Shown here piece after piece: positions 5,675 to 63,752 of a stretch of DNA of 64,000 nucleotides (positions within the stretch are counted from its first letter, which is position 1; every line of letters begins with the position of its first letter). The stretch comes from Prevotella sp. GTDB lineage: Bacteria > Bacteroidota > Bacteroidia > Bacteroidales > Bacteroidaceae. The translations under genes and the position numbers were made by a program. A model generated the notes under the pieces. That model was given only the letters and a program-made list of their open reading frames with translations, made no database searches and was not told where the DNA came from. The DNA lies in the NCBI GenBank assembly GCA_017623655.1, contig JAGAON010000008.1:248001-312000 (forward strand). Direction: 5' to 3'.

Positions 5675-5759
5675 GTAAAAGGGTGCTGATTACAATGTAA
5701 TCAGCACCCTTTCGTTGTGCAATCAGCACCTGTTTGCAGTGTAATCAGCACCTGTTTGC
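5675..5759. repeat. Phased palindromic array, 4 modules
   Basis: Modules at 5675-5693, 5697-5715, 5719-5737 and 5741-5759, each 19 bp, with 3-bp spacers aat, tgt and agt. The first module is GTAAAAGGGTGCTGATTAC. Cores in order: GGTGC, GCACC, GCACC, GCACC. It ends 8 bp before the dnaX stop, between convergent genes. Confidence 0.95.
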
Positions 5760-5767
5760 GAAGCCCC

Positions 5768-7594
5768 CTACTCCACCTCCAGTTTCAGTTCCTTCTGCAT
5801 GGCGGCGAAAGCAGGGTTCGTCTCTATCAGCTTTTGCAGGAAATCATGCGGCGACAACCTGCGCACCACCTCCTTCGGGTCAGCAAGACGCAGCGTCATG
5901 GTGACCTTGCCGTTGTGCAGACACTTAGCCATCGTCACCTCTATGCGGCGGAATATGGCGGAAATGTCACTTTGCAGAATGGTGTTCTCCACTATACAGT
6001 CAATGTGCGGGAACTCCGTTATCTTCAGCTGCACGTTCATCATGCGCTTGGCAAGCGCGTTCTGCTTGGTCAGCATCATCCGGTTGCACATCGACAGCCA
6101 TTCCCTGCGCACGTCATCCTCGGTGAACGCCGCCGATTCGTTGGCCGCTTCGCCAAGCGGTATCTTCTCCTCCACCTGACGGGTGACAGTGTTCGTACCA
6201 AGTATGCTGCTGAACGACGCGCCTATCGAGCCTAACTTGACGTGCGGACGCGAAGGCTTTGCGGCGGCAGCGCCGTCAACAGGTTTCGCGGCGGCGGCAT
6301 TGGCGTATGACGCCGGCACCGGCTCTGCAACCATTCCGCTGCCGGCACTTCCGTTAACAGAGGTTTCCTGTGACTGCCCCTCCCCCTTGGGGAGAGCGGA
6401 AGGAGCGGCGTTAACGGCAGCCATCTCCCCCATCAGTTTCCTGAACAGTGATTTTAAGCGTTTACAGGGCCTACGCCCACCGGCGGCATCGTCGCCGTCC
6501 TCCTGCGTAATCTGCGCCACCTGTATCAGCGTCAGCTCCACAAGCAGACGCTTGTTGCTGCTCATGCGGTAGTTGACATCACACTGGTTGAGCAGCTTCA
6601 GCGCCTTATACAGGAACTGGGGCCGGCAGCGTTTCGCCTGTTCCGCATACCGCTGCCGCTGTGCATCGCCGGCCTCTATCAGCTGTGTTGTCTGCGGTTC
6701 AAGCGCCATCAGCACGTTACGTATGTGCGAAGCCAGCCCGTTAACCGCCTGTCCGCCGTCAAATCCGCGCGAAAGAATGCCGTTAAGAGCCATCATTACC
6801 TCCGCAACCTTATTGTCAAGACAATAATCCACAATGCTGAAATAGTTGTCCGCGTCAAGCACGTTGAGGTCTTCTATCACCTTTTGGTAGGTTATGTTGC
6901 CCTGACAGAAGGACGCGGCCTGGTCGAATATGGACAGGGCGTCACGCATACCGCCATCCGCTTTCTCCGCAATCACGTTGAGTGCGGCGTCCTCGTAGGT
7001 GATACCCTCGCTCTCCGCCACGTGCTTTAAGTGGGAGACAATGCCCTGCACGCTCATGCGCTCGAAGTCATACACCTGACAGCGGGATATGATTGTAGGC
7101 AGAATCTTATGCTTTTCCGTGGTCGCGAGTATGAAAATGACGTGTGCCGGCGGCTCTTCCAGCGTCTTGAGGAACGAGTTGAAGGCCGCAGTTGACAGCA
7201 TGTGCACCTCGTCTATGATGAAAACCTTGTACCGTCCGGTCTGCGGCGGGATGCGGGTCTGCTCCATCAGCGTCTTGATATGCTCCACACCGTTGTTGGA
7301 TGCGGCGTCAAGCTCAAAGATATTCAGCGAGCGTCCCTCCTCAAAGGCGCGGCAACTCTCGCACTGTCCGCAGGCATCGCCGGTGGAAGTGGGGTTAAGG
7401 CAGTTTATTACTTTGGCGAAGATACGCGCACAGGTGGTCTTGCCCACACCGCGAGGACCGCAGAAAAGGTATGCGTGGGCGAGCTTTCCCGACTGCACCG
7501 CGTTCTTCAGCGTGGTGGTAAGCGCAGTCTGTCCCACGACACTGTCAAAGGTCATGGGGCGGTACTTGCGTGCGGAAACGATATAGTCTGACAT
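5768..7594 (-). CDS. dnaX: DNA polymerase III subunit gamma/tau
   Basis: Clamp-loader ATPase of the replicative polymerase. It has Walker A CGPRGVGKTT (about 45-54), a zinc module (CLNPTSTGDACGQCESC), DEVH in IIDEVHML, sensor 1 LATTEKHKILPTIISRCQ, domain III to about residue 365, then a low-complexity linker and a tau-like C-terminal domain. It is 608 residues. The linker contains SALPKGEG, encoded by a CTCCCC/GGGGAG palindrome at 6380-6394 that looks like a repeat absorbed into the reading frame. I see no A6-type slippery site for a separate gamma product. It starts 35 bp after the BASS transporter in the same direction. Confidence 0.95.
   Translation of the reverse strand: MSDYIVSARKYRPMTFDSVVGQTALTTTLKNAVQSGKLAHAYLFCGPRGVGKTTCARIFAKVINCLNPTSTGDACGQCESCRAFEEGRSLNIFELDAASNNGVEHIKTLMEQTRIPPQTGRYKVFIIDEVHMLSTAAFNSFLKTLEEPPAHVIFILATTEKHKILPTIISRCQVYDFERMSVQGIVSHLKHVAESEGITYEDAALNVIAEKADGGMRDALSIFDQAASFCQGNITYQKVIEDLNVLDADNYFSIVDYCLDNKVAEVMMALNGILSRGFDGGQAVNGLASHIRNVLMALEPQTTQLIEAGDAQRQRYAEQAKRCRPQFLYKALKLLNQCDVNYRMSSNKRLLVELTLIQVAQITQEDGDDAAGGRRPCKRLKSLFRKLMGEMAAVNAAPSALPKGEGQSQETSVNGSAGSGMVAEPVPASYANAAAAKPVDGAAAAKPSRPHVKLGSIGASFSSILGTNTVTRQVEEKIPLGEAANESAAFTEDDVRREWLSMCNRMMLTKQNALAKRMMNVQLKITEFPHIDCIVENTILQSDISAIFRRIEVTMAKCLHNGKVTMTLRLADPKEVVRRLSPHDFLQKLIETNPAFAAMQKELKLEVE
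6380..6394. repeat. CTCCCC/GGGGAG palindrome inside the dnaX linker
   Basis: A CCTCCCCCTTGGGGAG hairpin resembles the GC-rich intergenic repeat at 45113-45199 but lies in frame within dnaX, encoding part of the disordered linker. Confidence 0.5.
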
Positions 7595-7629
7595 TGGTTA
7601 TGTGGTTATTAGTTCTGAATTATAAGTTG

Positions 7630-8625
7630 TCAGTTGCCTTGTGACGGTTCTTTCCCGTCCCTGTTCCTGAACCAAGTGGCAAGGATGGTGCCGGAAATGG
7701 AGTGCCACGCACAGCTCAATGCGCACGGAATGACGGCCAAGGGGCACGTCGCCGCAAAGAAAGTGGAGGCGAGAACCGTGGCCAGTCCGGCGTTCTGCAT
7801 CCCCACTTCAATGGAGATAGTCCTGTTCTTGGCCTTGGAGAAGCGGAACATCCTGCCCACACTGTACCCCGCAAGGTAGCCGAGGGAGTTGTGGGCAAGC
7901 ACAACGGCGAACACCATAAGGAAGAAAGCGACGCCCTCACTGAGCAGTTTGTCATGCACGGCGGATATTACTCCTCCCACGATGCACGCCAGACCCAGCA
8001 CGCTGAAGGCCGGCATTACGGCCTGGGCACGCTTGAAACGCGCGTTTCCTCCATAGAAAAGGTTTGCGAAGAAGCCTATGGTGACGGGCATAAGGGTGAC
8101 GATAAGGATGTTGAGGAACATCCCGAGAGCGTCCACCTCCACCTGTTCGCCGGCCAGCCAAAGCACAAGCAGCGGCGTAACCACGGGCGCAAGAAGCGTG
8201 GAAGCGGTGGTCATGCCCACGGAAAACGCCACATCGCCGCGGCAGAGATAGGACATTATGTTGCTCGACACGCCGCCCGGACAGCAGCCGACAAGGATGA
8301 TGCCGACGATAACCGGCTTCGGAATGGCGACGCCAAGATAGCCGACACCCACGGTAAGAGACCATGCTATGAGCGGCATGAGCGAGAACTGTGCGCACGT
8401 TCCGATGAGGATGTCCCACGGCCGCGCCGCAAGCACCTTCATGTCCTGCATCGTAAGCGTCAGCCCCATGGTGAGCATTATGAAGCCAAGGATGCAGGAT
8501 TGCGTCGTGCCATGCACCCATGAGAACAGGCCCGGCACGAAATAGGTAAGCAATGCCACGGCGATTATGAACCAAGATGTATAGGTTGACAGCCAGTGGC
8601 TTGCCCTTAACAGTAAGTTATACAT
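7630..8625 (-). CDS. BASS-family Na+-dependent transporter (bile acid:Na+ symporter fold)
   Basis: A 331-residue integral membrane protein with nine to ten hydrophobic segments. It carries the SBF/BASS signatures GCCPGGVSSNIMSYLCRGD and IEVGMQNAGLA. Bacterial members of this superfamily carry various organic anions, such as pantoate, pyruvate-like acids or bile acids; the substrate here cannot be read from sequence. It is encoded just upstream of dnaX on the same strand, which gives no functional clue. A second, divergent member is at 30635-31501. Confidence 0.88.
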   Translation of the reverse strand: MYNLLLRASHWLSTYTSWFIIAVALLTYFVPGLFSWVHGTTQSCILGFIMLTMGLTLTMQDMKVLAARPWDILIGTCAQFSLMPLIAWSLTVGVGYLGVAIPKPVIVGIILVGCCPGGVSSNIMSYLCRGDVAFSVGMTTASTLLAPVVTPLLVLWLAGEQVEVDALGMFLNILIVTLMPVTIGFFANLFYGGNARFKRAQAVMPAFSVLGLACIVGGVISAVHDKLLSEGVAFFLMVFAVVLAHNSLGYLAGYSVGRMFRFSKAKNRTISIEVGMQNAGLATVLASTFFAATCPLAVIPCALSCAWHSISGTILATWFRNRDGKEPSQGN

Positions 8626-8647
8626 GCTGTGTTGTTTTGTATCAGAC

Positions 8648-8735
8648 GCAAAATTACAACTTTTTTCCGATATTTACAAACGTTTGTCATATCATCACAC
8701 ATTTTACGTCACAAGTTTTACGTGATGCAAAAGTA
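8648..8735 (-). promoter_or_regulatory. Two candidate -7 boxes for the BASS transporter
   Basis: The minus strand reads TAATTTTGC at 8656-8648 and TACTTTTGC at 8735-8727, both fitting TAnnTTTGC. Between them, TTTTACGTCACAAG is followed by TTTTACGTGA, a possible direct-repeat operator. Confidence 0.5.
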
Positions 8736-8808
8736 CAAAAAACATCTTGAACCCGCAAATGTACCGCGGCTTATTTTTCCTCATCACGCAAAAAACGGCG
8801 GCAGATTC

Positions 8809-8832
8809 GGACGCACCAAGGTGCGTCCCTAC
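8809..8832. repeat. Single GTAG-type REP
   Basis: One hairpin, GGACGCACC/GGTGCGTCC, ending CCCTAC (GTAG on the minus strand). Its partner may be the outward-facing copy at 9244-9267. Together they bracket the structured-element pair at 8884-9197. Confidence 0.8.
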
Positions 8833-8883
8833 AAGGCGTCACCATCCACAAACGCTATAAACGCCACAAAAAATGGAGGCGAT

Positions 8884-9007
8884 GAACCCCGAAGGGGTGA
8901 CACAACTTAGCACAGGGTGTAAACCCTGTGTTATCATTTGAGCGGGAAAAAGTGTATCGGAAACCCCGAAGCCGGCAGGCGAGGAACACAAAGTGCGACG
9001 AGGGGTG
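8884..9007 (+). repeat. Structured CCCC-element, copy a
   Basis: Starts GAACCCCGAAGGGGTGACA and ends GAGGGGTG. Stems: CCCC/GGGG; CACAGGG/CCCTGTG; and an outer stem of the 3' half enclosing GCCGGCAGGC and a weak CAC-aaa-GTG hairpin. It forms an inverted pair with the copy at 9074-9197. Confidence 0.8.
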
Positions 9008-9073
9008 ACATAAAAAACACAGGGAATCATCACAAACAAATATACCGAGGCGCATTATGTGCGACGGATATAT

Positions 9074-9197
9074 CACCCCTCGGCGGCTTTCTGCCGCCTC
9101 GCCTGCCGGCTTCGGGGTTTCCAATACGTCTTGCGGACGCACCATCTGAACACAGGGTTGACACCCTGTGCTGTAATATTCCACCCCTTCGGGGTTC
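9074..9197 (-). repeat. Structured CCCC-element, copy b
   Basis: Inverted partner of copy a. Its variable terminal hairpin is GGCGGC-agaaa-GCCGCC instead of the GCAC/GTGC seen elsewhere, so pairing is kept with different bases. Confidence 0.8.
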
Positions 9198-9243
9198 TCC
9201 ACCGACATAGAAACACCACCAAAATATACTACAAACCGAAGTG

Positions 9244-9267
9244 GTAGGGACGCACCTTGGTGCGTCC
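9244..9267. repeat. Single GTAG-type REP
   Basis: GTAG followed by GGACGCACC-TT-GGTGCGTCC. It has no adjacent inverted copy to its right; the opposite half is at 8809-8832. Confidence 0.8.
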
Positions 9268-9318
9268 TTCATGCCGAAACATAAACGGCCATTTCGCAAA
9301 AAGATGCCGGTTACGACA

Positions 9319-9413
9319 GTAGGCACGGCATCTTGCCGTGCAACAGGCAATGATGTCAAGGCCGAACAAAAGCGTACAGAAAAGGCGATTACACGGCAGG
9401 ATGCCGTGCCTAC
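9319..9413. repeat. GTAG-type REP pair, second stem type
   Basis: GTAG plus stem GCACGGCA/TGCCGTGC with a TCT loop, and an inverted copy (ACGGCA-GGA-TGCCGTGCCTAC) ending at 9413. The architecture matches the GGACGCACC type but the stem sequence is different. An array starts 15 bp later. Confidence 0.85.
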
Positions 9414-9427
9414 TATCATGCCGCAAA

Positions 9428-9512
9428 ACAAAAGGGTGCTGATTACATTGCAATCAGGCCTCTTTTACACAGTAATCAGCACCTGTTTGCAATGTAATCA
9501 GCACCCTTTTAC
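9428..9512. repeat. Phased palindromic array, 4 modules
   Basis: Modules at 9428, 9450, 9472 and 9494, each 19 bp, with spacers att, aca and aat. The second module has the alternative core GGCCT with a CTTTTAC arm. The array lies 21 bp beyond the 3' end of the GH10 gene. Confidence 0.95.
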
Positions 9513-9533
9513 GGAATGGCCGTCATGTCACTG

Positions 9534-12500
9534 TCATTCAACCACTTTCTTCACCGTCCTGACAGAGCCGTCAGAATAACGCTCTACCTCCAATATCAGG
9601 CCGTGAGGAGCGGCAACACGCTGTCCCGCAACGTTGAGGCAAGTCTTCCCTATCAGCTTTTTCCCGTCTCCGTCAGCGGCGGCGGACTTCACTCCCGTGG
9701 CCTTTTCCGCAGCCAGTCTCAGCTGTGCGTGGACGTTGTAATAGGCGGGTTTCGGCTCCAGAGAGCTGTTGTAAAGCAGCGGTTGGTTCTGCCTCCAAGA
9801 GTGATTGTCCGATATTCCCCACACCAACATGGACGGACAGTTGTCGTTACGCAGGAACACTCTCGTGACAGCGCCATACTCCTTCGCCTGAATGTCAAGC
9901 GCATCGGCGGCGTAAGGGTTGGCAAGAGCGATGTCAAGCTCGGTAATGATGCAGTTCATGCCTATGTCGGCGTAACGGCGTATGTTCTTCTCCAGCTTGA
10001 GGGTGTCCAGTTCTCCCGTCGTGAGGTGGCACTGCAAGCCGCAGCCGTCGATGGGGATGTTTGAGGCTTTAAGGCGCTTCACGAGGTTGTAATAGGCCTC
10101 GGTCTTCGTTCCGCCCATAAACTCCGCACCGTACTCGTTGATGTATAGCTTGGCCTGCGGGTCGGCCTGATGCGCCCATACGAACGCTGAATCGATAAAT
10201 TCCTCACCTATATAGGTCGCCCAGATGGACGGACGCAGCTTGTAGGCGGTAGGATCCGTGCGCACAATGCTCTGGTCATCGTCGAGAACCTCGTTGCATA
10301 CGTCCCACTCGCATATCCTGCCCTTGTAGTTGCCGACCACGTTGAAGATATGGTTTTTCAGTATATCGAGCAGCTGCCGCTTTGTGAATCCTTTGTTATT
10401 CTTCTTTCCATCCTGACTGACCCATGCCGGAACCTGCGAGTGCCAGGCCAGTGTATGGCCGCGCACAGCCTGCTTGTACCTGTCGGCCACCCATATAACA
10501 GCGTCAGAACCGCCATAGTTGAAGTTGCCTTGGCTTGGCTCTGTCGCGTCAAACTTCATCTCGTTCTCGCCCACAAGCATATTGAACTGATTGCCCACAA
10601 GCCCCGTTTCACCCGTGTCCTTGCTGCAATCGTAACGGTATGTGGCCACCGCCACGCCGATGTTCTTGCCCAACTTGGCTGCGTAAGTGCGCAACGGGGT
10701 GTCGTCGGTCATGTCCGTCGTCCAGTCATCGTCAGGATATTGTCCGGCAATGTCGCCGCCTTCGTTCTCATCCTCCACGTCACCCTGACCGCCGTAATCA
10801 AGTGATGTCACCTTGGCCACGATGTTATAGGAGCCGTCCGCGCCCTCACGCTGCTCCACAACCCATGTGTATGCCTTGGGATAACGCATCGCGAAGTTCC
10901 AGTCCGTGCCCTCCTTGGAGGTTGCGGAGAACAGTGTCACCTCGTCGTTCACCGCCAGCTGCGCCCCGTCAGCCAGCGCAATGGTGAGGCGGGGCATACG
11001 CTCCGAGTCCTCAAAGTCCTGTGTCTTTCCGCTGTAAGCTATGGGTCCGCTGACACTTACGAGGTCCGCCTCACCGGCACCACGTACCCGGCACACCACG
11101 TTAGCCTCCGGATGGAGCGTCACTTTCACGCCCGTTGCAGGCGTGACGGTATTCACGAACCGCAGAGTGCCTATGTCGTCAGAGCCGGCCTTGAGCGTAC
11201 CATACACCTCGGTGGGTGCGGCTATGGTTCCGTTGCCGCCCAATGTGGCGCCGCGAAAGACTGTTATCGTGCCGTTACTGCCGGTCGCTCCTTTGGTCTT
11301 TGCAGCCATGGTGGAGGCGGCGGAGTTGTCTATCAGCAGGGTACCGGCAAGAACGCGTATGCCGCCATTGATGTCATTGTCCCCGCCTGTGATGCTGTAT
11401 GTGCCCGTACCTTCCTTTATAAGGCCGACCTTGTTGCCCTCAGCGAATGGGGAGATGCCGCCTGCCAGTACGGCGTCGGTATTCTTGCCGCCGACGATGT
11501 AGTACGAATTGGCCGTGTTTTTCTTGTAATAGCCGCACAATGAGCTTCCTTTCTCTGTCTGCAACTCACCTATGCGTATGCCGCGCGTGCCTGACTCCAC
11601 CGCCATTGTGGCGCCGTCGTGCAGCACAAGCGTCTTGTTGGCGAAGAGGGTGTTGTACCTTGACGCGTCGATGTTGTCCGGCTGGAACGTCCCGCTGCTT
11701 ACAAGCAGTCCGTAGAAACCGCAGTTGCCCGCCACCTTCTTGTACGGATAGACGTGGACATCGCCCGTCATGCCGTTCCAGTCCGGGTACGTCGCGCCCT
11801 TGCTGGATGATGTTCCGATGTATGACCGTTCGCCGCCGGCGTAGATGTTGAGCGTTCCCTCGCCCGCTACCTTGCCCGTCCATTCCGAGTAACGGGACGT
11901 AAGCACGTTGGCGGTCTGGCCTGCCGGGATGTAGATATTGTCAGAGATGGTCTTGTAACTGGTTGAAGTGTTGCTGACACAATAGTCCAGCGTGCCGCCG
12001 TCCTCCACGGAAACGAAGTCGTCATACTCCCCTACCAGCTGCACATCGTCGATGTAATAGTCGGAGTTGTCATGGTGTATGCCGAGGCGCAGCCTGTCTG
12101 ACGTGTTGCTGTCCTCAACCGGTGACATGACGTACTCCTTGGTCTGCCACGTCTCTTTCGCCCCCTGACTGGGATAACCCTCATCCCTGTAAACCTCTTG
12201 CGAGCCTACAAAGGCGGCAAACTGTTTCCATTCCGCCTCGTCACCGGCACTGCGATAGAGTCTGTAACGCACCTTACCGTAACGTTTTGTCAACTCACTG
12301 CCGCGCAGAGTGGTGGGCAGCACGAACTCAGGATGGGCGCCCCAGTCCTCCAAGACTACATGGAGCACCTTGTTGGCGGGATTCGTCGGGTCGGCTACCA
12401 CAGTTGCGGTGGATGTCATTGTGCCGCCATAGACGTGCCACATGGGCACGGACGTCCCTATGGCATAGTTCTCAAAGTCGCACACGGTGAGCGGTGCGGC

Positions 12501-12557: not shown

Positions 12558-12635
12558 TCTCTTGTATTATTGTTTTATCATTCTTTTTCACTCTATTCCG
12601 CAAAGCATGGGAAACACGCGGTTACGCACTACAAG

Positions 12636-12720
12636 GCAAAAGGGTGCTGATTACACTGCAATCAGGTGCTGATTACCATGTAAAAGAGGCCTGATTACAC
12701 AGCAATCAGCACCCTTTTAC
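12636..12720. repeat. Phased palindromic array, 4 modules
   Basis: Modules at 12636, 12658, 12680 and 12702; spacers act, cat and aca. The third module has core AGGCC. It lies between the GH10 start and its likely promoter, so it is probably transcribed in the GH10 leader. Confidence 0.95.
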
Positions 12721-12799
12721 TTTGCATCCCGTAACGCATTATGCGGCAACGTGTTGCCGGCCGGCTGCCGTAAAAGATACGAAAACCGTCCATACCTCT

Positions 12800-12832: not shown

Positions 12833-12911
12833 TAAATTCTGGTAAAAGTTGCCATGGCATTCATATTTATGCACAGAATGGGGTAGTGTGAGCAATTTCT
12901 CAACAAATATT

Positions 12912-13884: not shown

Positions 13885-13899
13885 CCGCCGGAAGCGGTA

Positions 13900-19133: not shown

Positions 19134-19218
19134 GCAAAAGGGTGCTGATTACAGTGTAAACAGGTGCTGATTGCATTGTAAAAAGCACCCTTTTACCGTG
19201 TAATCAGCATGCTTTCAC
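19134..19218. repeat. Phased palindromic array, 4 modules
   Basis: Modules at 19134, 19156, 19178 and 19200; spacers agt, att and cgt. The last module is degenerate (core GCATG). It lies upstream of the gamma-CA-like gene. Confidence 0.92.
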
Positions 19219-19289: not shown

Positions 19290-19414
19290 CACCCCTCGTC
19301 GGCCTATGGCCTCCTCGCCTGCCGGCTACGGGGTGCCGATACCTTTTTCTCATACAACATCCGCATACCCAGGGCTCACGCCCTGGGCTTTAATATGTCA
19401 CCCCTTCGGGGTTC
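19290..19414 (-). repeat. Structured CCCC-element, copy c
   Basis: Minus-oriented copy with the variable hairpin GGCC-ata-GGCC and central stem CCCAGGG/CCCTGGG. It is paired with copy d in a tail-to-tail arrangement 105 bp apart. Confidence 0.8.
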
Positions 19415-19519: not shown

Positions 19520-19643
19520 GAACCCCGAAGGGGTGACACATTACAGCACAGGGCGTGAGCCCTGTGTTTTATCGCATTGGGCAACAAATTGTATTGGAAC
19601 CCCGCAGCCGGCAGGCGAGGAGGCCATAGGCCGACGAGGGGTG
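19520..19643 (+). repeat. Structured CCCC-element, copy d
   Basis: Plus-oriented copy with CACAGGG/CCCTGTG and GGCC-ata-GGCC stems. It ends 30 bp before the M64 gene stop. Confidence 0.8.
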
Positions 19644-24492: not shown

Positions 24493-24577
24493 GCAATCAG
24501 CACCTGATTACATTGTAATCAGCACCTAATCACACGGTAATCAGCACCTGATCGCGAGACAATCAGCACCCTTTTAC
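24493..24577. repeat. Phased palindromic array, 4 modules
   Basis: Modules at 24493, 24515, 24537 and 24559; spacers att, acg and gag. All four cores are GCACC, so every module has the same orientation. It lies between co-directional genes. Confidence 0.93.
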
Positions 24578-29476: not shown

Positions 29477-29561
29477 GCAAAAGGGTGCTGATTACATTGT
29501 GAAAGAGGCCTGTTTACACTGTAATCAGCACCTGATTGCAATGTAATCAGCACCCTTTTAC
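29477..29561. repeat. Phased palindromic array, 4 modules
   Basis: Modules at 29477, 29499, 29521 and 29543; spacers att, act and aat. The second module has core AGGCC. Confidence 0.95.
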
Positions 29562-34506: not shown

Positions 34507-34591
34507 ACAATCAGCACCTGATTGCGGTGTAATCAGGTGCCAATCACACTGCAATCAGGTGCTGTTTACAAGGTAATCAGGTGCTGATTAC
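34507..34591. repeat. Phased palindromic array, 4 modules
   Basis: Modules at 34507, 34529, 34551 and 34573; spacers ggt, act and aag. It lacks AAAAG/CTTTT arms at both ends. It lies between the convergent ddh and NUDIX genes. Confidence 0.95.
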
Positions 34592-37669: not shown

Positions 37670-37754
37670 ACAAAAGGGTGCTGATTACGATGTAATCAGC
37701 ACCCTTTTACCTTGCAATCAGCACCTGTTTACACTGTAATCAGGCGCTGATTGC
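37670..37754. repeat. Phased palindromic array, 4 modules
   Basis: Modules at 37670, 37692, 37714 and 37736; spacers gat, ctt and act. The last core is mutated to GGCGC. It lies between convergent genes and is followed 15 bp later by a REP pair. Confidence 0.93.
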
Positions 37755-45837: not shown

Positions 45838-45944
45838 GCAAAAGGGTGCTGATTACCCAGTAAACAGGTGCTGATTACAATGCAAACAGGTGCTGATTAC
45901 AATGCAAACAGGTGCTGATTGCAACGTAATCAGCACCTGTTTGT
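45838..45944. repeat. Phased palindromic array, 5 modules
   Basis: Modules at 45838, 45860, 45882, 45904 and 45926; spacers cca, aat, aat and aac. Modules 3 and 4 are almost identical (GCAAACAGGTGCTGATTAC and one base different), suggesting duplication of one 22-bp unit. It is the only array in the window with more than four modules. Confidence 0.96.
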
Positions 45945-47283: not shown

Positions 47284-47407
47284 GAACCCCGAAGGGGTGA
47301 CATAACATAGCCCGGGGTGCTAACCCCGGGGAGGTTAATGTCTCACACGGAAACGTATTGGCACCCCGTAGCCGGCAGGCGAGGAGCACAGAGTGCGACA
47401 AGGGGTG
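47284..47407 (+). repeat. Structured CCCC-element, copy e
   Basis: The central stem here is CCCGGGG/CCCCGGG, compensating the CACAGGG/CCCTGTG of copy a. The variable hairpin is GCAC-aga-GTGC. It faces copy f across 63 bp. Confidence 0.82.
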
Positions 47408-47470: not shown

Positions 47471-47594
47471 CACCCCTCGTCGCACTCTGTGCTCCTCGCC
47501 TGCCGGCTACGGGGTGCCAATACGTTTTCCGCCCAAATACAAATAAGCCCAGGGTTTACACCCTGGGCTATGTTATGTCACCCCTCCGGGGTTC
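47471..47594 (-). repeat. Structured CCCC-element, copy f
   Basis: Inverted partner of copy e. Central stem CCCAGGG/CCCTGGG and variable hairpin GCAC-aga-GTGC. It ends 29 bp before the acyl-CoA ligase stop. Confidence 0.82.
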
Positions 47595-52620: not shown

Positions 52621-52705
52621 ACAAAAGGGTGCTGATTACCCGGCAATCAGGTGCCAATCACAATGTAATCAGGTGCTGTTTACAAGGTAATCAGGTGCTG
52701 ATTGC
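52621..52705. repeat. Phased palindromic array, 4 modules
   Basis: Modules at 52621, 52643, 52665 and 52687; spacers ccg, aat and aag. All four cores are GGTGC, so all modules point the same way. Between convergent genes. Confidence 0.95.
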
Positions 52706-56638: not shown

Positions 56639-56673
56639 GGGTATAACAGTAACTAAAACTCCATTATCTTAAT

Positions 56674-56682
56674 GCAAATATA
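56674..56682 (-). promoter_or_regulatory. -7 box for priA
   Basis: The minus strand reads TATATTTGC, 36 bp upstream of priA. Confidence 0.55.
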
Positions 56683-56733
56683 ATAAAAAAAGTATTTCCT
56701 ACAACTATTTTTCACAAAGTTTCATACAAAGAC

Positions 56734-56764
56734 TTGGTACTTTCAATACTTTTAGTTACCTTTG
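56734..56764 (+). promoter_or_regulatory. Promoter of the Abi-type gene
   Basis: TTG at 56734-56736, a 20-bp spacer and TACCTTTG at 56757-56764, about 39 bp before the ATG. Confidence 0.75.
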
Positions 56765-56802
56765 TCAACATAAAACAGCGTATGCAATCACACCACTAAT
56801 AT

Positions 56803-57717
56803 ATGAAAACTGCGTTAGACATAGATGAACAAATAGCAAGACTTAAAGAGCACGGAATGTGCTTTGACGATGAAGTCAAGGCGAAAGAGATATTGCTTGA
56901 CGTCGGCTACTATCGTCTTGGCTTTTATTCTTTCCCGTTCGAGAAGAGCTTTCCGGATGTCATCAACCGCGACCATAAGCTACGGGAAGGAACTAATTTC
57001 ACAAGTATTGTGGAACTATATTATTTCGATTACGATTTAAGACGCATATTGTCCAATTACCTAAACAGGATAGAAGTAAACATAAGAACACAGATTACAT
57101 ACATTGTTTCCAACCGTTACAAGAGCAGTCCCACATGGTTTGTCAACCCAAGCGTAATGAAAAAAGAGTATATCAGCCACTTTCCCAAGGCTGTCTATAA
57201 CACAATATCCGACAATCCCGCGATAAAACGCCACCATGCCAAATACATTAACGACAAATATGCACCTGCATGGAAGACGCTTGAGTTCATGACCTTGGGG
57301 AATCTCATCATGTTATATCACAATTTGAAGGACAAAGAGCTTCAAAAAGAGATTGCCTTGCATTACAAATGCTCTTTCGGGGTATTCTGCAACTACATGG
57401 AAACGATACGAATTGTGCGTAACAAATGCGCCCACGGGAACTGCCTATACAACATGAACCTGTCAAAAGGCATAAAGAAAAGACCTGCAAACATAGAGGA
57501 AAAAGACAAGCACAACATAAAAGGCGGCATAGAAGTCATACGATACTTCCTTAACCAAATATCAAGCAACAGGTTAAAGGACATGGACAACAGCCTGCAC
57601 GCTTTAATGCGGACAGCAAGAAGCAAGCAGGCACAGGACACAATATCCGCCTGCACAGGCCTATACGAATATTGTTCCTGCAAAGATAAACAGCAAACAA
57701 TAAACAAATATTGTTAA
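56803..57717 (+). CDS. Abi_2 (AbiD/AbiF-like) abortive-infection protein with HEPN motif
   Basis: A 304-residue soluble protein of the Abi_2 family: N-terminal DIDEQIARLKEHGMCFDDE and LDVGYYRLGFYSFPFE, then YYFDYDLRRILSNYLNRIEV. The HEPN RNase motif Rx4H is seen as VRNKCAHGNCLY (about residues 205-211). Such proteins protect lactococci from phages by halting growth. The gene is clearly AT-richer than its neighbours and stands alone between priA and the glycosyltransferase, suggesting transfer. It is intact. Confidence 0.88.
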   Translation: MKTALDIDEQIARLKEHGMCFDDEVKAKEILLDVGYYRLGFYSFPFEKSFPDVINRDHKLREGTNFTSIVELYYFDYDLRRILSNYLNRIEVNIRTQITYIVSNRYKSSPTWFVNPSVMKKEYISHFPKAVYNTISDNPAIKRHHAKYINDKYAPAWKTLEFMTLGNLIMLYHNLKDKELQKEIALHYKCSFGVFCNYMETIRIVRNKCAHGNCLYNMNLSKGIKKRPANIEEKDKHNIKGGIEVIRYFLNQISSNRLKDMDNSLHALMRTARSKQAQDTISACTGLYEYCSCKDKQQTINKYC

Positions 57718-57722
57718 TTTCT

Positions 57723-57754
57723 TTGGCCATATCGCATAAAACTCCTACCTTTGC
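57723..57754 (+). promoter_or_regulatory. Strong promoter of the candidate small RNA
   Basis: TTG at 57723-57725, a 20-bp spacer and TACCTTTGC at 57746-57754, right after the Abi stop codon. Confidence 0.75.
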
Positions 57755-57756
57755 AG

Positions 57757-57846
57757 TGCAAAAGTGCCCCACGGGCATAGTCATCGTGAATGCACTATAA
57801 TAAGGATGTAAGAGGAGTTTACCATGGGTACGCTCCTCTTTTTTGT
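57757..57846 (+). ncRNA. Candidate small RNA or attenuator leader
   Basis: A near-consensus promoter followed within about 90 nt by the hairpin AGAGGAG/CTCCTCT and six T, with no full-size gene in between. It would give an RNA of about 90 nt, or act as an attenuator before the glycosyltransferase start at 57868. A 16-codon frame (MGTLLFFVLHKTILEC) begins at ATG 57824 in the hairpin loop after AGGAG and overlaps the glycosyltransferase start. I cannot assign it to a named RNA family. Confidence 0.5.
57811..57846 (+). terminator. Terminator of the candidate small RNA
   Basis: AGAGGAG pairs with CTCCTCT around a loop of about 15 nt and is followed by TTTTTG, 20 bp before the glycosyltransferase start. 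Confidence 0.85.
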
Positions 57847-57867
57847 TTTACATAAAACAATTTTAGA

Positions 57868-58935
57868 ATGCTGAAAATAGGCTACGACGCTAAAAGATAC
57901 TACCACAACCGCACAGGACTGGGCAATTACAGCCGCACACTGATAAACGACGTGAAGTCACTGTGCCCCGACATAGACGCCGCACTGTATGACAGTCCCG
58001 CACTGGAGCGCACCTTCCGCTTGGGCAGAAAGGCGGCTGCGGACGGCTGCCGCCTGTTCCACGGACTGTCAAACGAACTGCCGCGCGACATTGTCAAGGC
58101 CGGAATACCGTCAATAGTCACCATACACGACGTGGCGTGGCGAACATTTCCCGATATGTACTCCGTCTTCGACCGCAAGATATACGACATAAAATACGGA
58201 TGGTCGGCACGCAACGCCACCCGTGTGGTGTGCATCAGCGAATCGACAAAGCGCGACGTGATGCGGTTCTACGACGTACCGGAAGAACGGATAACGGTCA
58301 TCTACCAACCCGTGCAACGGCTGTTCTACACGCCAATCACGGCGGAAGAGGCGGAAAAGACGTGCGACAGGGTGCTGCCATACACATGCGAACGGGACAT
58401 TATACTCACCGTAGGCTCGATAAACAGCCGCAAGAACCTGCTCGGCATGGTGCGTGCGCTGGAGGGGTTGGCGCCAAAGGAACGCCCGCTGTTCGTGGTT
58501 GTGGGCAACGGAAGGGGCTACCGTGACAAGGTGGAGCAATACATCGACGCCCACGGACTGCGCAGCTGCATACGCATAGAGAGCAACATACACGACGCAC
58601 AGACGCTTCAGGCTCTCTACAAGCGTGCCAAGTGCCTGATGTACCCTTCTTTCTACGAGGGGTTCGGACTGCCGGTGGTGGAGGCGTCGTTACAGAAGTG
58701 CCCTGTCATAACAAGCAACGTGTCGTCACTGCCTGAGGCGGCGGGACCGGCTTCGATACAGGTTGATCCTACGGCCGTGAGTCAGATGACGAACGCGCTG
58801 CGCCGTCTGCTGTCGTCGCCGGAGGAGTGTGACAGGCGTGGCGAGGAGGCTTACCGATACTGCACGGAGCGTTTCGCGCCGGAGACGCTGACAAGGCGGA
58901 TGCTCGACTTATACGACTCGTTAATCTCTGAATAA
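57868..58935 (+). CDS. GT4-family glycosyltransferase
   Basis: A 355-residue GT-B-fold retaining glycosyltransferase: N-terminal MLKIGYDAKRYYHNRTGLGN with the GxGNY acceptor-side loop, middle ILTVGSINSRKNLLGMVRAL, and C-terminal MYPSFYEGFGLPVVEASLQK with the EX7E-type donor motif. It ends RRMLDLYDSLISE. It is a lone gene, not in a visible polysaccharide cluster, so the acceptor is unknown. Its expression may depend on read-through of the terminator 20 bp upstream. Confidence 0.92.
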   Translation: MLKIGYDAKRYYHNRTGLGNYSRTLINDVKSLCPDIDAALYDSPALERTFRLGRKAAADGCRLFHGLSNELPRDIVKAGIPSIVTIHDVAWRTFPDMYSVFDRKIYDIKYGWSARNATRVVCISESTKRDVMRFYDVPEERITVIYQPVQRLFYTPITAEEAEKTCDRVLPYTCERDIILTVGSINSRKNLLGMVRALEGLAPKERPLFVVVGNGRGYRDKVEQYIDAHGLRSCIRIESNIHDAQTLQALYKRAKCLMYPSFYEGFGLPVVEASLQKCPVITSNVSSLPEAAGPASIQVDPTAVSQMTNALRRLLSSPEECDRRGEEAYRYCTERFAPETLTRRMLDLYDSLISE

Positions 58936-58968
58936 CAACCATTTACAGAAACAGAAACGGACGGCGGT

Positions 58969-59053
58969 GTAAAAGGCACCTGTTTACAGTGTAATCAGCA
59001 CCCTTTTATCATGTAATCAGCACCTGATTGCAAGGTAATCGGCACCCTTTCAC
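58969..59053. repeat. Phased palindromic array, 4 modules
   Basis: Modules at 58969, 58991, 59013 and 59035; spacers agt, cat and aag. All cores are GCACC. A REP pair starts 24 bp later. Confidence 0.93.
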
Positions 59054-59076
59054 AAAAGGATATGCCGGCAACGCTT

Positions 59077-59148
59077 GTAGGGACGCACCTTGGTGCGTCC
59101 GCCAATGCGAAAATACGGCGATTCGGACGCACCAAGGTGCGTCCCTAC
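59077..59148. repeat. GTAG-type REP pair, GGACGCACC type
   Basis: Both hairpins are perfect: GTAG plus GGACGCACC/GGTGCGTCC, and the inverted copy ending CCCTAC. It ends 59 bp before the PL11 start codon. Confidence 0.88.
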
Positions 59149-59207
59149 ATAAACGGTTGACACAACATAAGAAATAACTATCACAATAACTAACAATACT
59201 ATCGATT

Positions 59208-61841
59208 ATGAAAAAGACCCTACTATCCCTCAGCCTTGCGGCACTGACAATGCTGCCGGCAAACGCCGTACAGGTGAAGGAAAGACTGAACCGCGCGCCT
59301 GTGGCGGTATCGACAAAGACTGGCATACTCGTGTCGTGGCGCTCACTTACCGCCGATGGTGCGGGAACATCATTCAATGTCTATCGCGGAGGCACGAAAA
59401 TTGCATCGGGACTGGCCACGACAACCAACTACCTTGACAAGTCCGGCAAAGCGGGAGACGCCTACAAAGTGGAGACGGTGGTAAACGGTACGGTGACGGA
59501 GACAAGCGAAACCACCGCATGGGACAATATGTTCACCACCATAAAGGTTAACCGCCCCGCACCACAGGCCGCCGCCAACGGCACGATGGGCTATTACAGG
59601 CCGGATGACATCAGCGTGGGCGACCTTGACGGCGACGGCAACTATGAGCTGGTACTGAAATGGATGCCGAGCAACCAGCAGGACAACGGATTCAACGGCT
59701 ACACCTCTCCCTGCATCATCGACGCATACCGCATGGACGGCACACAACTGTGGAGGGTAGATCTGGGGCTCAACATACGCTCCGGCAACCACTACACGCA
59801 GTTCCTTGTCTATGACTTCGACGGCGACGGCAAGGCGGAAATGATATGCAAGACCGCTCCCGGCTCGAAAGACGGCAAGGGAGAATACGTGTCAAAGGCA
59901 GGAACGGAGACAGGCGTGACAGGTGTTGACAACAGCAAGCGGTACGTTAACAGCCGCGGACACATAGACAGCGGCGAGGAGTTCCTCACCGTCTTCAACG
60001 GAATGACGGGCGAGGCGATGCACACCATCTTCTATTCGCCAAGTCATGCAGCCACGGACTTCCCGAAAGCGGCAACAACTTACAACACTTCCGCATGGGG
60101 AGACACCAACAATAACCGCGGTAACCGCTACAATGCGGCCGTGGCTTACCTTGACGGCAAGGACAAACTGCCGTCTGCCGTGATGCAACGCGGATACTAC
60201 ACACGCTGCTATCTGTGGGCAGTGGATTGGGACGGCAACGCCCTTAAAACCAAATGGCTGCACAAAGGCACAAGCACAAGCGCATGGTCGGTGGTGGATG
60301 CCACAGGCACCACATTGCTGTCAGGCAGCGGAATGTCAAGCTACGGACAGGGAGTGCACGGCATCAGCGTGGGCGACGTGAACGGTGACGGCTTTGACGA
60401 CATAGTGACCGGAGGCGCAACGATAGGGCATGACGGCGCACTGCTATGCTCAACGAAGAAAGGACACGGCGACGCGATACACCTGACAGACCTGTGTCCC
60501 GACCGCGAGGGGCTGGAAATAATGATGCCGCACGAGGAAAGTCCGTACGGATATGACGTGCATGACGCCACGACAGGTGAGCTGATAGTAAGCGCGACAG
60601 GCTCTGGCGACAACGGACGGGGAGTGGCCGCCGACTTCATACCGGCCAACCGCGGCTTCGAGTTCTGGTCTTCCGCAGACAACAACATACGCTCCTGCAC
60701 TGACGGCACTGTGCTGCTGGGCAGCAAACCGGACGCGAATTTCCGCATATACTGGACAGGAGACCCTTACGACCAAACCTTCGACGGACGGTATGACAGC
60801 GGAACGGGCAAGAGCGCACCGCGCATCCGTTCCTACAACACGGCGAAGAAAAGCATCATTACCTTTCAGGAATTTGCGGCATACGGCAGCCCTTCCACCT
60901 GCAACACTACCAAAGCGACACCATGTTTGCAGGCGGACATACTGGGAGACTGGCGTGAGGAAATCATAATGTACCAGCATGAGGACGACTATTCGGCCGA
61001 CCAGTGCACGCTGATGATATTCTCCACCCCCGAGACCACAAAGTACAAGGTGCCGTGTCTGATGGAAGACCACATCTATCGCATGGGTATCGCATGGCAA
61101 AACGCTTCATATAACCAGCCGCCGCACCTCGGTTACTACCTGCCGGACTACCTCGGCATAAACGGCGCGACATACACTACCGCGACAACAGGCAACGCTC
61201 CAAGTGCTCCGATAGCGCCGGTGGAACCGGGAGAGGACATGAAAGAGAATCTGGCAATGCCGTCAGAAGACAAGGGAACGGTAAAGGGAGTATGCTACAC
61301 AGCCGGCGCCAATCAGGAGATAACGGCGTCATCAAGCGGCGACTTCATCAAGATACGCACCGGAAACAACGGCAACACCATCACGTTCAGCGTCAACAGC
61401 GGCTACGTTATAACGGGCATTACCGTGAAAGCGTACAGCAACAACAAGTCGTCAACGGCCGACCGGTCCATCACTCTGACCGACATCTGCATAGACGGAA
61501 GCACGGAGTCCGTACTGGCCAGCCCGGTCATACTGCCCGGAGGCACCAAGGGACAGACGCCGGTAACGGCTGAGGCAAAGGGATTCAGCGCCACAAGCGA
61601 CATCGTATTGAAGTTCGACAACTCGCTGATAACCACAAGTGACGTGGACGCCAACGGCAAGAACAAGCAGATATTCGCCCAAATCACATTCACATTCCAA
61701 CAGGCTGACGGGGTGAAAGACGTGAAAGGCACGGACAAAGCGCCGATGGAAAAGAACGTGATATACGACCTTTCAGGCCGCAAAATCAGCACGCCGAAGA
61801 AGGGAATATACATCATCAACAACAAGAAATACGTATTTTAA
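59208..61841 (+). CDS. PL11 rhamnogalacturonan endolyase
   Basis: An 877-residue secreted lyase that cuts the rhamnogalacturonan-I backbone. Signal peptide MKKTLLSLSLAALTMLPANA, then an N-terminal Ig-like domain (GILVSWRSLTADGAGTSFNV) and an eight-bladed propeller with calcium-binding DxDxDG repeats (GDLDGDGNYELVLKW, YDFDGDGKAEMICK, GDVNGDGFDDIVTGG). A C-terminal beta-sandwich (about 690-840) and the tail IYDLSGRKISTPKKGIYIIN follow. The product should be substrate for GH105 enzymes such as that at 35330-37645. A strong hairpin follows the gene. Confidence 0.93.
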   Translation: MKKTLLSLSLAALTMLPANAVQVKERLNRAPVAVSTKTGILVSWRSLTADGAGTSFNVYRGGTKIASGLATTTNYLDKSGKAGDAYKVETVVNGTVTETSETTAWDNMFTTIKVNRPAPQAAANGTMGYYRPDDISVGDLDGDGNYELVLKWMPSNQQDNGFNGYTSPCIIDAYRMDGTQLWRVDLGLNIRSGNHYTQFLVYDFDGDGKAEMICKTAPGSKDGKGEYVSKAGTETGVTGVDNSKRYVNSRGHIDSGEEFLTVFNGMTGEAMHTIFYSPSHAATDFPKAATTYNTSAWGDTNNNRGNRYNAAVAYLDGKDKLPSAVMQRGYYTRCYLWAVDWDGNALKTKWLHKGTSTSAWSVVDATGTTLLSGSGMSSYGQGVHGISVGDVNGDGFDDIVTGGATIGHDGALLCSTKKGHGDAIHLTDLCPDREGLEIMMPHEESPYGYDVHDATTGELIVSATGSGDNGRGVAADFIPANRGFEFWSSADNNIRSCTDGTVLLGSKPDANFRIYWTGDPYDQTFDGRYDSGTGKSAPRIRSYNTAKKSIITFQEFAAYGSPSTCNTTKATPCLQADILGDWREEIIMYQHEDDYSADQCTLMIFSTPETTKYKVPCLMEDHIYRMGIAWQNASYNQPPHLGYYLPDYLGINGATYTTATTGNAPSAPIAPVEPGEDMKENLAMPSEDKGTVKGVCYTAGANQEITASSSGDFIKIRTGNNGNTITFSVNSGYVITGITVKAYSNNKSSTADRSITLTDICIDGSTESVLASPVILPGGTKGQTPVTAEAKGFSATSDIVLKFDNSLITTSDVDANGKNKQIFAQITFTFQQADGVKDVKGTDKAPMEKNVIYDLSGRKISTPKKGIYIINNKKYVF

Positions 61842-61842
61842 G

Positions 61843-61893
61843 CAAATCCGGTTATGGGTTCTTGCTGACGGCAAGAGCCCATAACCGGATTTG
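61843..61893 (+). terminator. Long hairpin terminator after PL11
   Basis: CAAATCCGGTTATGGG and TCTTGC pair with GCAAGA and CCCATAACCGGATTTG, about 23 bp with one wobble, followed by TTTACC. Confidence 0.82.
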
Positions 61894-61905
61894 TTTACCA
61901 CTGGC

Positions 61906-62031
61906 GAACCCCGAAGGGGTGACAGAACACAGCCCAGGGTATAAACCCTGGGTATGCTAATGTGATTCACGAAGAAAACTATTGGCACCCCAACGCCGGA
62001 AGGCGAGGAGCACATAGTGCGACGAGGGGTG
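61906..62031 (+). repeat. Structured CCCC-element, copy g (single)
   Basis: The only unpaired copy. CCCAGGG/CCCTGGG central stem, GCAC-ata-GTGC variable hairpin, and an internal change to CGCCGGAAGGCG that keeps the stem. It lies 45 bp upstream of the GH30 start. Confidence 0.82.
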
Positions 62032-62075
62032 TTGGAAAACAAGAAAAAACAACGACCTATTTTGATAAAACCAAC

Positions 62076-63575
62076 ATGAAAAGACTGCTAACCATTATCA
62101 CACTTGCCGCATGCACAGCGGCATACGCACAGAAATTCAACCATTATACCACCACGGAGAAGGCCGAATGGCAGCAGGGGAAGAGCCTGCGCATGAGCAA
62201 AACGGCGGGCACACTGCCGGCACTGACCGTCAAAGGCGACGAGCAGGGGCACGTGTTCAAGGCATGGGGCACGTGTTTCAACGAGCTGGACCTTGACGCC
62301 ATAAGCCTGCTTGAGGAGCAAGACCGGCAGGAAGTGATGCGCCGGCTGTTCTCGCCTGACGGTGACTTGCGCTTCACACGCGGCAGATTGACGATGAATG
62401 CCAATGATTACAGCCGGGAATGGTACTCATGCGATACCGTGGCGGGCGACTTCAGGCTGCGCTACTTCAACATAGAGCACGACAAGAAGAACGTGATACG
62501 CCTCATACGCATGGCGCAACGCTACCAGCCGGCACTGACATTCTGGATGTCCCCGTGGTCTCCGCCGGCATGGATGAAGATTAACAACGACTATCCTGTG
62601 GTGTCAAGCAGATACAACAAACAGCCGAAAGAGAAGGACTACCTGCTGTATGAGGGCGCGGAGGGGCAGATAGACGAGGACGAAGTGAAGCTGGCCGGAG
62701 TGAGGAAAGGGCAGTTTCCACGGCAGTTGGCGGCGCAGAACTACATGATACAGGACGCGCGATACTTGCAGGCATACGCGGATATGTTCTGCAAGTTCAT
62801 AGAGTTGTACGCCGGAGAGAACGTGCCCATAGACATGGTGATGTACCAGAACGAGGCGTACTCATACACACCGTACCCCGGATGCGCATGGACAGCGGAG
62901 GGAACGGTGCGCTTCAACCGTGACTTCCTTGTCCCGACACTCAGGAAACGGCACCCGGAAGTGAAGACATACATAGGCACGTTCAACACCAACCGCCTTG
63001 ACTATGTGCAGAAGATAGTCGATGGTCTGAAAGGATATGTTGACGGCATCGGCCTGCAATGGGAAGGCAGGGACAACATCAAGGCCTTGCGCCAACGTTA
63101 TCCCGACATACACTTCGTCTCGTCAGAGAGCGAATGCGGCAACGGTTCCATGGACTGGCGTGCCGGCGAGCACACCTTCCACCTGCTGTGCGACTACATC
63201 GGCCGCGGATGTGACGAGTACTACATCTGGAACTTCATCCTTTATGACAACGGACGCTCACCGTGGGGATGGGCGCAGAACGCACTGATACAGGTTGACT
63301 CAAAGACGAAGAAGCACCGTTATACCGCAGAGTTCTATGCGGTAAAGCACTTCTCCAACCTCATACCGGGCGGCAGCCGGGTGACAGCGTACAAAAGCCG
63401 CGAGGAGAACAACGGCGTTTCCGTCATAGTCTTTATGCGTCCGGACGGCAAACGGGTGGTGATAGCGGGCAACTTCACCGATTCACAGCGCACGGCGACA
63501 GTGAAACTGGGAGGGAAATACCTCAACATCCCCACTCCGCCCCACTCTTTCAACACTTGCGTGGAGACGCGATAG
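62076..63575 (+). CDS. GH30-family glycoside hydrolase
   Basis: A 499-residue secreted enzyme: signal peptide MKRLLTIITLAACTAAYAQ, barrel with FKAWGTCFNELDLDAISL, FWMSPWSPPAWMKIN, acid/base MVMYQNEAYSYTPYPGC, nucleophile region FVSSESECGNGSMDW and EYYIWNFILYDNGRSPWGWA. The C-terminal beta domain (about 430-499) completes the GH30 architecture. Specificity may be beta-glucosidase, beta-xylosidase or beta-1,6-glucanase. The start is ATG 62076; 38 upstream codons within the structured element are rejected. Confidence 0.9.
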   Translation: MKRLLTIITLAACTAAYAQKFNHYTTTEKAEWQQGKSLRMSKTAGTLPALTVKGDEQGHVFKAWGTCFNELDLDAISLLEEQDRQEVMRRLFSPDGDLRFTRGRLTMNANDYSREWYSCDTVAGDFRLRYFNIEHDKKNVIRLIRMAQRYQPALTFWMSPWSPPAWMKINNDYPVVSSRYNKQPKEKDYLLYEGAEGQIDEDEVKLAGVRKGQFPRQLAAQNYMIQDARYLQAYADMFCKFIELYAGENVPIDMVMYQNEAYSYTPYPGCAWTAEGTVRFNRDFLVPTLRKRHPEVKTYIGTFNTNRLDYVQKIVDGLKGYVDGIGLQWEGRDNIKALRQRYPDIHFVSSESECGNGSMDWRAGEHTFHLLCDYIGRGCDEYYIWNFILYDNGRSPWGWAQNALIQVDSKTKKHRYTAEFYAVKHFSNLIPGGSRVTAYKSREENNGVSVIVFMRPDGKRVVIAGNFTDSQRTATVKLGGKYLNIPTPPHSFNTCVETR

Positions 63576-63667
63576 CATAACAGTCACCATCCATGCAAAG
63601 GGGCATACGCCAAGGCTTTGACGCACCCGCGCCAACAAACAACTCAGTCCTACAAACTGCCCCCATT

Positions 63668-63752
63668 GTAAAAGGGTGCTGATTACCGTATAAACAGGTG
63701 CTGATTACATTGCAATCAGGCCTCTTTTACAAGGTAATCAGCACCCTTTTAC
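63668..63752. repeat. Phased palindromic array, 4 modules
   Basis: Modules at 63668, 63690, 63712 and 63734; spacers cgt, att and aag. The third core is GGCCT. A remnant REP end (GCCGTGCCTAC, 63784-63794) lies 30 bp on. Confidence 0.95.

Follow-up and report, generated by a model that had tools for sequence, protein, structure and literature searches.

Phased arrays of palindromic 22-bp units between the genes of Prevotella

The arrays and their layout

The window analysed here is a 64-kb stretch of DNA (64,000 nucleotides; positions 248,001-312,000 of contig JAGAON010000008.1) from a Prevotella sp. genome labelled G000, a 1.93-Mb assembly that is 60% complete. Between its genes lie twelve arrays of a 19-bp palindromic module, with successive modules set 3 bp apart and repeating at a period of 22 bp. 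They are listed below with the two features that adjoin the first array, one of which is a hairpin pair of repetitive extragenic palindrome (REP) type. Comparisons are with a sister genome, G021, and with another relative, G001.

5675..5759, unstranded: four-module array, 8 bp past the dnaX stop; two modules at the orthologous G021 site
5635..5674, minus strand: 40-bp link from the array to the GTAG-type REP hairpin
5566..5639, unstranded: GTAG-type REP hairpin pair (GTAGGGACG...), a repeat family separate from the arrays
9428..9512, unstranded: four-module array; three modules detected in the orthologous G021 gap
12636..12720, unstranded: four-module array in a divergent gap; the orthologous G021 gap has one too, poorly alignable (59%)
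19134..19218, unstranded: four-module array
24493..24577, unstranded: four-module array; orthologous G021 interval without an array, not a clean empty site
29477..29561, unstranded: four-module array; identity to G021 91% in the array and 71% in the flanks
34507..34591, unstranded: four-module array past the terminator-like hairpin of the diaminopimelate dehydrogenase gene; exactly one 22-bp unit fewer in G021; array also in G001
37670..37754, unstranded: four-module array
45838..45944, unstranded: five-module array following the guanylate kinase gene, with a counterpart at that place in G021
52621..52705, unstranded: four-module array past the terminator-like hairpin of the trigger factor gene
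58969..59053, unstranded: four-module array
63668..63752, unstranded: four-module array before a convergent tRNA-Gln gene

Re-reading the window reproduced all twelve starts and the 19+3 layout given in an initial annotation, as well as the array lengths of 85 bp in 11 cases and 107 bp in one. A weight matrix built from the window modules recovers 49/49 of them plus two weak extra matches (13.0 and 11.6 bits), and Markov-shuffled copies of the window (n=10) gave 0-4 matches above 8 bits each, a range that covers the two extras. A genome-wide scan, such as the initial annotation had proposed, was carried out on 859 kb of the 1,929-kb assembly (45%), which is the basis of all genome-wide counts for G000. 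It found 140 arrays, with 4 modules in 116, 2 in 11, 3 in 9, 5 in 3 and 1 in a single array; by extrapolation, the whole assembly would hold about 310. Module spacing is 22 bp in 383 of 389 cases, the exceptions being 24, 27, 44 (three times) and 62 bp, and array phase is therefore nearly fixed despite common substitutions, as the initial annotation had supposed when it called phase constrained. Its description of the arrays as fixed at four modules holds only as a strong mode in G000 (116/140), since the number runs from 1 to 5 there and up to nine in relatives.

The letters of the modules, the links to other repeats and the pair tests rest on 86 G000 arrays, about half of which are best model matches rather than a random sample. 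Modules begin with RYAA and end with TTRY, and A4 and T16 are each present in 343 of 344 modules. Position 10 varies freely (A 160, T 153), as does position 5 (T 212, A 132), and the core is mainly GGTGC (150) or GCACC (155). The outer arms mostly read AAAAGG and the inner ones AATCAG (half 1, 55/86; half 8, 51/86), so that the first module (M1) is often an inverted copy of the fourth (M4). Module orientation is uniform or switches once, from > to <; more than one switch was found in 4 of 53 decisive arrays, against 16.4 expected. In an alignment of 29 arrays from six species, in which the rows from outside the window were chosen partly by their outer letters, 7 of the 8 A4/T16 columns are at least 90% conserved. 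The 3-bp spacers do not fit a CRISPR, whose spacers are unique and about as long as its repeats.

GTAG-type REP hairpins (GTAGGGACGCACCTTGGTGCGTCC) were found at 81 merged sites in the 859 kb, frequently as inverted pairs. Such a REP is joined to about a third of the 86 arrays through a conserved 40-bp link whose length hardly varies.

Placement, spacing and strand symmetry

Genes were called with a hexamer-based caller made for this analysis, with no curated annotation, and the null placements described below rest on the same calls. As the initial annotation held, the window arrays are intergenic: none lies inside a called gene, nor does any other G000 array, and in the relative G004 one array falls within a called gene. 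Of the 132 G000 arrays that could be classified (8 more lie at stretch ends), 79 occupy tandem, 43 convergent and 10 divergent gaps. When gap length is taken as the residual length after array removal, gaps of 200-400 bp hold an array in 12/16 convergent, 20/54 tandem and 1/27 divergent cases, and gaps of at least 400 bp in 18/23, 43/63 and 9/17, respectively. Within tandem gaps of G000, 33% of arrays lie at most 60 bp from the upstream stop and 4% at most 60 bp from the next start. For gaps of at least 200 bp, the corresponding occupancies are 9/14 divergent, 10/24 tandem and 3/4 convergent in G004, and 8/23 divergent, 20/52 tandem and 9/20 convergent in P. nigrescens.

Spacing along the chromosome was compared with a null in which the same number of arrays per stretch was dropped into the same gaps, with weights set by how often gaps of each type and length hold an array. 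With a single array counted per gap in G000, the mean distance between arrays is 5.5-5.6 kb with a coefficient of variation (CV) of 0.38-0.39, versus 0.61-0.65 (standard deviation about 0.05) in the null, and none of 1000 null runs reached this evenness under four gene-size settings (78-89 distances). No distance is below 1.5 kb, where 7-11% would be expected. Counting every array instead gives a CV of 0.43 versus 0.67, with 2 of 100 distances below 1.5 kb versus 13.6% expected. The dispersion index of counts per 20 kb is 0.36 for the arrays versus 1.15 for the GTAG REPs, which served as a control in the same genome and whose gap CV fits the null (0.62 versus 0.67, p 0.32). The result is similar in G004, where 19 distances have a mean of 4,964 bp and a CV of 0.38 versus 0.62 (standard deviation 0.10), with 0 of 500 null runs as low. 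The arrays are more regularly spaced than chance, strongly so in these two species and weakly in a third, P. nigrescens.

For tests of strand, 75 G000 arrays in tandem context were turned to the direction of transcription. Mismatches of the G.U and A.C types are equally frequent, both across spacers (116 versus 125) and within modules (207 versus 209), and the outer AAAAGG arm lies near in 46 tandem-gap cases and far in 42. After the trigger factor (tig) and diaminopimelate dehydrogenase genes, separate hairpins with T-runs, recognised by eye, stand between the stop codon and the array. From the equal mismatch counts, the lack of near/far arm bias and these separate hairpins, the array reads as strand-symmetric DNA and not as RNA or a terminator. 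It lacks the strand asymmetry expected of an intrinsic terminator, in which a hairpin and U-run act on the transcribed strand, and the structured RNA that the initial annotation had considered is disfavoured on the same evidence.

RNA folding of 3 of the 12 arrays was predicted on both strands, and all six strands fall far below shuffles (z -6.1 to -13.6), which is expected of palindrome arrays. For most position pairs, covariation does not exceed that of slot-shuffled sets, whether within modules, across spacers, between M1 and M4 or between M2 and M3. The exceptions are M1 position 8 with 12 (0.98 versus 0.95, z 7.5), M1 position 3, and positions 5 and 7 between M1 and M4 (z 2.6 and 2.5). 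The centre positions of neighbouring modules pair worse than shuffled.

Sequence history and spread across the genus

Within an array, modules resemble one another no more than they resemble those from elsewhere (15.60 versus 15.48 of 19, p 0.20, 407 comparisons). Likeness between nearest-neighbour arrays is only slightly above that of module-shuffled ones, with a mean of 74.5 versus 72.9-73.5 of 85, and the best pair is identical at 83/85 positions versus 77-81 in the shuffled sets. In the sister genome G021, 13 of 17 comparable orthologous intervals of G000 arrays hold an array; the reverse count, 13/13, is biased because the G021 contigs were mostly chosen for holding arrays. Among the 12 of 13 orthologous pairs that could be aligned, identity is 77.7% in arrays and 64.5% in flanks, with 79.6% in modules and 61.9% in spacers.

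Units change in whole 22-bp steps. The diaminopimelate dehydrogenase array lacks exactly 22 bp in G021, the dnaX array has four modules in G000 versus two at the same place in G021, and neighbouring modules are near-identical in the relatives G016, G001 and G176. At the diaminopimelate dehydrogenase gene, an array with module letters of its own is also present in G001 (layout score 31 versus a shuffled maximum of 23) and a weak one in G016 (26 versus 24), and among the nine loci read there is none in G003, G004, G008, G017 or G024. Clean insertion is not supported by the sites compared: of the four without an array in G021, three were aligned and none of these has clean junctions. A MITE (miniature inverted-repeat transposable element) would be expected to have terminal inverted repeats and a target duplication at clean empty sites; M1 and M4 are often inverted copies of each other, and the three aligned sites show no clean junctions. 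The mobile unit of fixed size suggested in the initial annotation is not demonstrated by these sites, nor by array pairs that barely exceed module-shuffled ones in likeness.

Relatives carry modules of 22-bp period with other interiors, which are AATCAGGCC-like in G001, AAAAGGC.GCC-like in G004, AAAAGGTTA-like in G010 and AATCTG-like in G016. Modules in these four genomes were initially selected by chaining outer letters at 22 bp, and their spacing and outer letters are partly given by construction; a grid of period and width peaks at 22/19. The modal module number is 4 in G004 (16/24 arrays) and 5 in G016 (7/11), with 3-9 modules in the 12 arrays of G010, and the G001 counts are inflated by half-register matches of palindromic modules (10 of 26 spacings are 11 bp). 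The two-module pattern of the window itself was found in 21 stretches from Prevotella sp. SUG853 and two uncultured Prevotellaceae assemblies. With a sequence-only model built on the 29-array, six-species set, 82 of the 199 genomes sampled in the genus give a match (E<=0.001), G000 being one of them; order-wide, only 2 of 196 genomes beyond G000 do so, with one weak match each (3/197 with G000). Both scans scored at most 22 candidates per genome under strict filters, which makes the per-genome counts floors and the absences weak. No 22/19 chain was found in 280 kb of other families.

The initial annotation knew of no named family with this layout, and PINSR of the P. intermedia group now appears to be a member. 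According to the cited parts of PMC4755523, PINSR is an intergenic repeat 188 bp long, of which two P. intermedia strains carry 177 and 184 copies, about three quarters of them at places common to both; it also occurs in P. nigrescens and past tnaA, has no terminal inverted repeats and is of unknown function. In genome G100, a 22-bp array stands past a tnaA-like gene, the match to the gene family being strong but below its curated cut-off; G080, also a two-contig genome with a tnaA-like gene, has no array past that gene. Copies in G100 and G017 have stretches of about 188-275 bp in common. Positions 1-188 of a 192-bp copy from G100 match the P. nigrescens replicon NZ_CP082843.1 with 76% identity, at 12 places, and a second copy matches P. 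nigrescens F0103. A layout scan of 150 kb of NZ_CP082843.1 found 14 arrays at period 22, 1 at 19 and 0 at 20-21 and 23-26. Since the G100 copy matches this replicon and the replicon holds period-22 arrays, PINSR is, by sequence comparison, almost certainly the P. intermedia-group version of the array element. The 188-bp unit is found in the element family through the G100 copy and not in the window copies, the comparison being with P. nigrescens sequences rather than with the published consensus. The window arrays showed no sequence similarity to PINSR when blastn was run with one of them, which gave no match in a plasmid collection that holds the P. nigrescens record. NZ_CP082843.1, which is listed as a P. 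nigrescens plasmid, carries rpsA, dnaX, ileS and nuo genes and looks like a second chromosome.

A place of the arrays on mobile DNA was rejected, as the P. nigrescens-type copy matched no phage record, the two-module pattern was in no viral contig and the window array gave no plasmid match. Transposases show no general tie to the arrays. Matches to Y1 (RAYT-like) transposases, present in 15 of 28 genomes, do not track the arrays: there is none in G021, which is array-rich but incomplete, and none in G017, and the Y1 loci of G004 and G010 have no array nearby. The only Y1 match in the 60% complete G000 (L009 1225-2396; G000:C3 near 292 kb) lies among CGCCCTGAAAGGGC repeats; the repeats flanking it include a run of seven tandem copies at a spacing of 44 bp. 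The nearest three-module array is about 600 bp from this Y1 gene. All three Y1 loci of G016 (L269, L279, L286) have 22-bp arrays at most 1.5 kb away. A RAYT/REP origin is disfavoured, given that the one Y1 gene of G000 has a different repeat around it and that genomes with Y1 are not consistently those with arrays; the G016 loci are the exception.

The window also holds seven matches to the Rfam family Acido-Lenti-1 (RF01687), two-hairpin sequences of 46 nt, at the positions below. This family may be an interspersed repeat rather than a small RNA gene.

8885-8930, 9151-9196, 19368-19413, 19521-19566, 47285-47330, 47548-47593, 61907-61952: Acido-Lenti-1 (RF01687) matches

Candidate roles and comparison with known repeats

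Phase constraint, near-invariant A4 and T16, strand symmetry and even spacing together point to an element that acts at the level of DNA. Spacer letters that vary freely within a fixed phase, and the lack of any sign of copying among modules, likewise suit operator sites bound in phase. The account we favour, to which we give close to an even chance, is that the arrays are phased binding arrays for an architectural DNA-binding protein. Each 19-bp module would be a dimer-type operator with the conserved outer letters RYAA...TTRY, and the 3-bp spacers would bring successive modules onto the same face of the DNA, at a distance of two helical turns. A Prevotella protein, nucleoid-associated or insulator-like, would bind the modules together cooperatively and form a bent or wrapped node. 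Such nodes, placed in intergenic gaps about every 5.5 kb, would be an evenly spaced punctuation of the chromosome with a part in its folding, and the module interior would drift between species together with the protein while phase and outer letters stay. The modules do stand in helical phase, and the arrays are placed non-randomly along the chromosome, strongly so in G000 and G004. More tentatively, the punctuation may be specific to the genus and its architectural protein fast-evolving, with each species keeping spacing and phase and changing the word; we think this possible, though on balance doubtful. An AA-wedge model predicts the arrays to be more bent than dinucleotide shuffles in six species, and such predicted bending supports an architectural role. 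Pure DNA curvature was rejected as the explanation because the predicted bending, though above shuffles, does not favour 22 over 21 bp.

Several observations weigh against a binding array. No binding protein was found, although no search by distribution across genomes was made. In the AA-wedge model 21 bp bends more than 22 bp, and in a second (Bolshoy) model the bending of G000 is marginal (0.961 versus 0.965). Evenness is weak in P. nigrescens (44 distances, CV 0.68 versus 0.85, p 0.036), and distances are too few in G016 (6, p 0.16) and G010 (3). The GTAG REP control, with 32-35 distances, has less power and likewise contains none below 1.5 kb (p 0.13 and 0.20), which makes it weak for close pairs. 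The bias of G000 arrays towards gene 3' ends is not seen in G004 or P. nigrescens. Spacing in G010 is 22 bp in 37 of 47 cases and 20 bp in 4; 117 of the 199 genomes in the genus were without a match under the strict filters; and in 3 of the 12 aligned orthologous pairs conservation of the flanks equals or exceeds that of the array. A bare operator array further predicts no repeated DNA beyond its ends, yet about a third of the 86 G000 arrays have such DNA, and copies of the P. nigrescens group repeat over about 188 bp or more. Of the three possibilities that the initial annotation offered, a binding array still fits best, on phase, A4/T16, strand symmetry and even spacing.

The main rival is an old, functionless extragenic repeat of REP or MITE kind that gained and lost whole 22-bp units and whose spread was self-avoiding (target-immune) or pruned by recombination, an explanation that is quite plausible and still falls somewhat below even probability. 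It would account for the repeated DNA beyond the array, both in P. nigrescens-group copies and in the link and REP of G000, and for the unit changes at dnaX and diaminopimelate dehydrogenase and the near-identical neighbours in G016, G001 and G176. The authors of PINSR, in section 3.4 of PMC4755523, read it as an amplified repeat, and the three Y1 loci of G016 (9.9 kb) hold five arrays, against an expectation of about 1.5 from the 12 arrays in 80 kb. Target immunity, or recombinational loss of close pairs, would also give even spacing. Yet GTAG REPs in the same genome have a gap CV not below the null, there is no general transposase tie, near-identical copies are few, and the retention of phase and near-invariant letters by copies that have diverged strongly suggests selection.

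We consider it unlikely that the arrays are bidirectional transcription terminators or stabilisers of mRNA 3' ends, as might be proposed because M1 and M4 can form long hairpins ending in TTTT. The strong predicted folding, the convergent bias of G000 gaps of 200-400 bp (12/16 versus 1/27 divergent), the two-module hairpin 8 bp past the dnaX stop in G021 and the few M1 and M1-M4 positions that pair better than shuffled all agree with it. Set against these are the absence of G.U over A.C bias and of near/far asymmetry of the T-rich arm, the separate T-run hairpins before the array at tig and diaminopimelate dehydrogenase, the lack of covariation at most position pairs, the poorer pairing of neighbouring centres, and the frequency of arrays in long divergent gaps (9/17 in G000, 9/14 in G004). 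A supercoiling site of the BIME-2 kind, bound by gyrase or a known IHF/HU-like protein with no dedicated partner, would suit the gap position and predicted bending, but the interiors differ between species, which a conserved gyrase or HU leaves unexplained, and we regard it as very unlikely.

If a protein reads the arrays, as in the binding-array account, Prevotella would have architectural sites at regular intervals, with a recognition sequence that is replaced from one species to the next; if they are selfish, they would offer a clear example of an extragenic repeat that avoids its own copies. Strand-symmetric behaviour as DNA and over-regular spacing are the two points that look new, and the open-access literature yielded no account of the 22-bp layout or its genus-wide spread (subscription papers lay outside this search). 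E. coli BIME-2, the gyrase-bound repeats, resemble the window arrays as intergenic arrays proposed to act on DNA topology; we set them beside the arrays by description rather than by sequence, and we know of no even spacing among them.

REP/BIME elements and REPINs with their RAYTs are likewise short extragenic palindromes present in many copies and both orientations. The cited part of PMC3733652 distinguishes the REP motif classes GTAG and CGTC; the modules, which start with RYAA and end with TTRY, carry neither end motif, and a separate GTAG family is present in the same genome. The arrays further differ in their strict 22-bp period, their over-regular spacing and the lack of a general RAYT tie. 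BrickBuilt, a MITE of Porphyromonas gingivalis, also consists of intergenic tandem short repeats in a Bacteroidales species. It differs from the arrays in its 23-bp direct repeats (1-22.8 units), its leader and tail and its IS5-like inverted ends, and has 19 copies in ATCC 33277 (PMC4596501).

PINSR is closest, being intergenic, multi-copy, about 188 bp long and found past tnaA, as is the G100 array past its tnaA-like gene. It has only layout and outer letters in common with the window arrays, the module letters being different, and the cited sections of PMC4755523 mention neither a 22-bp module array nor even spacing. Those sections present it as restricted to one clade. With the arrays described here, PINSR, until now an unexplained clade-specific repeat, becomes one case of a modular element that is widespread in Prevotella.

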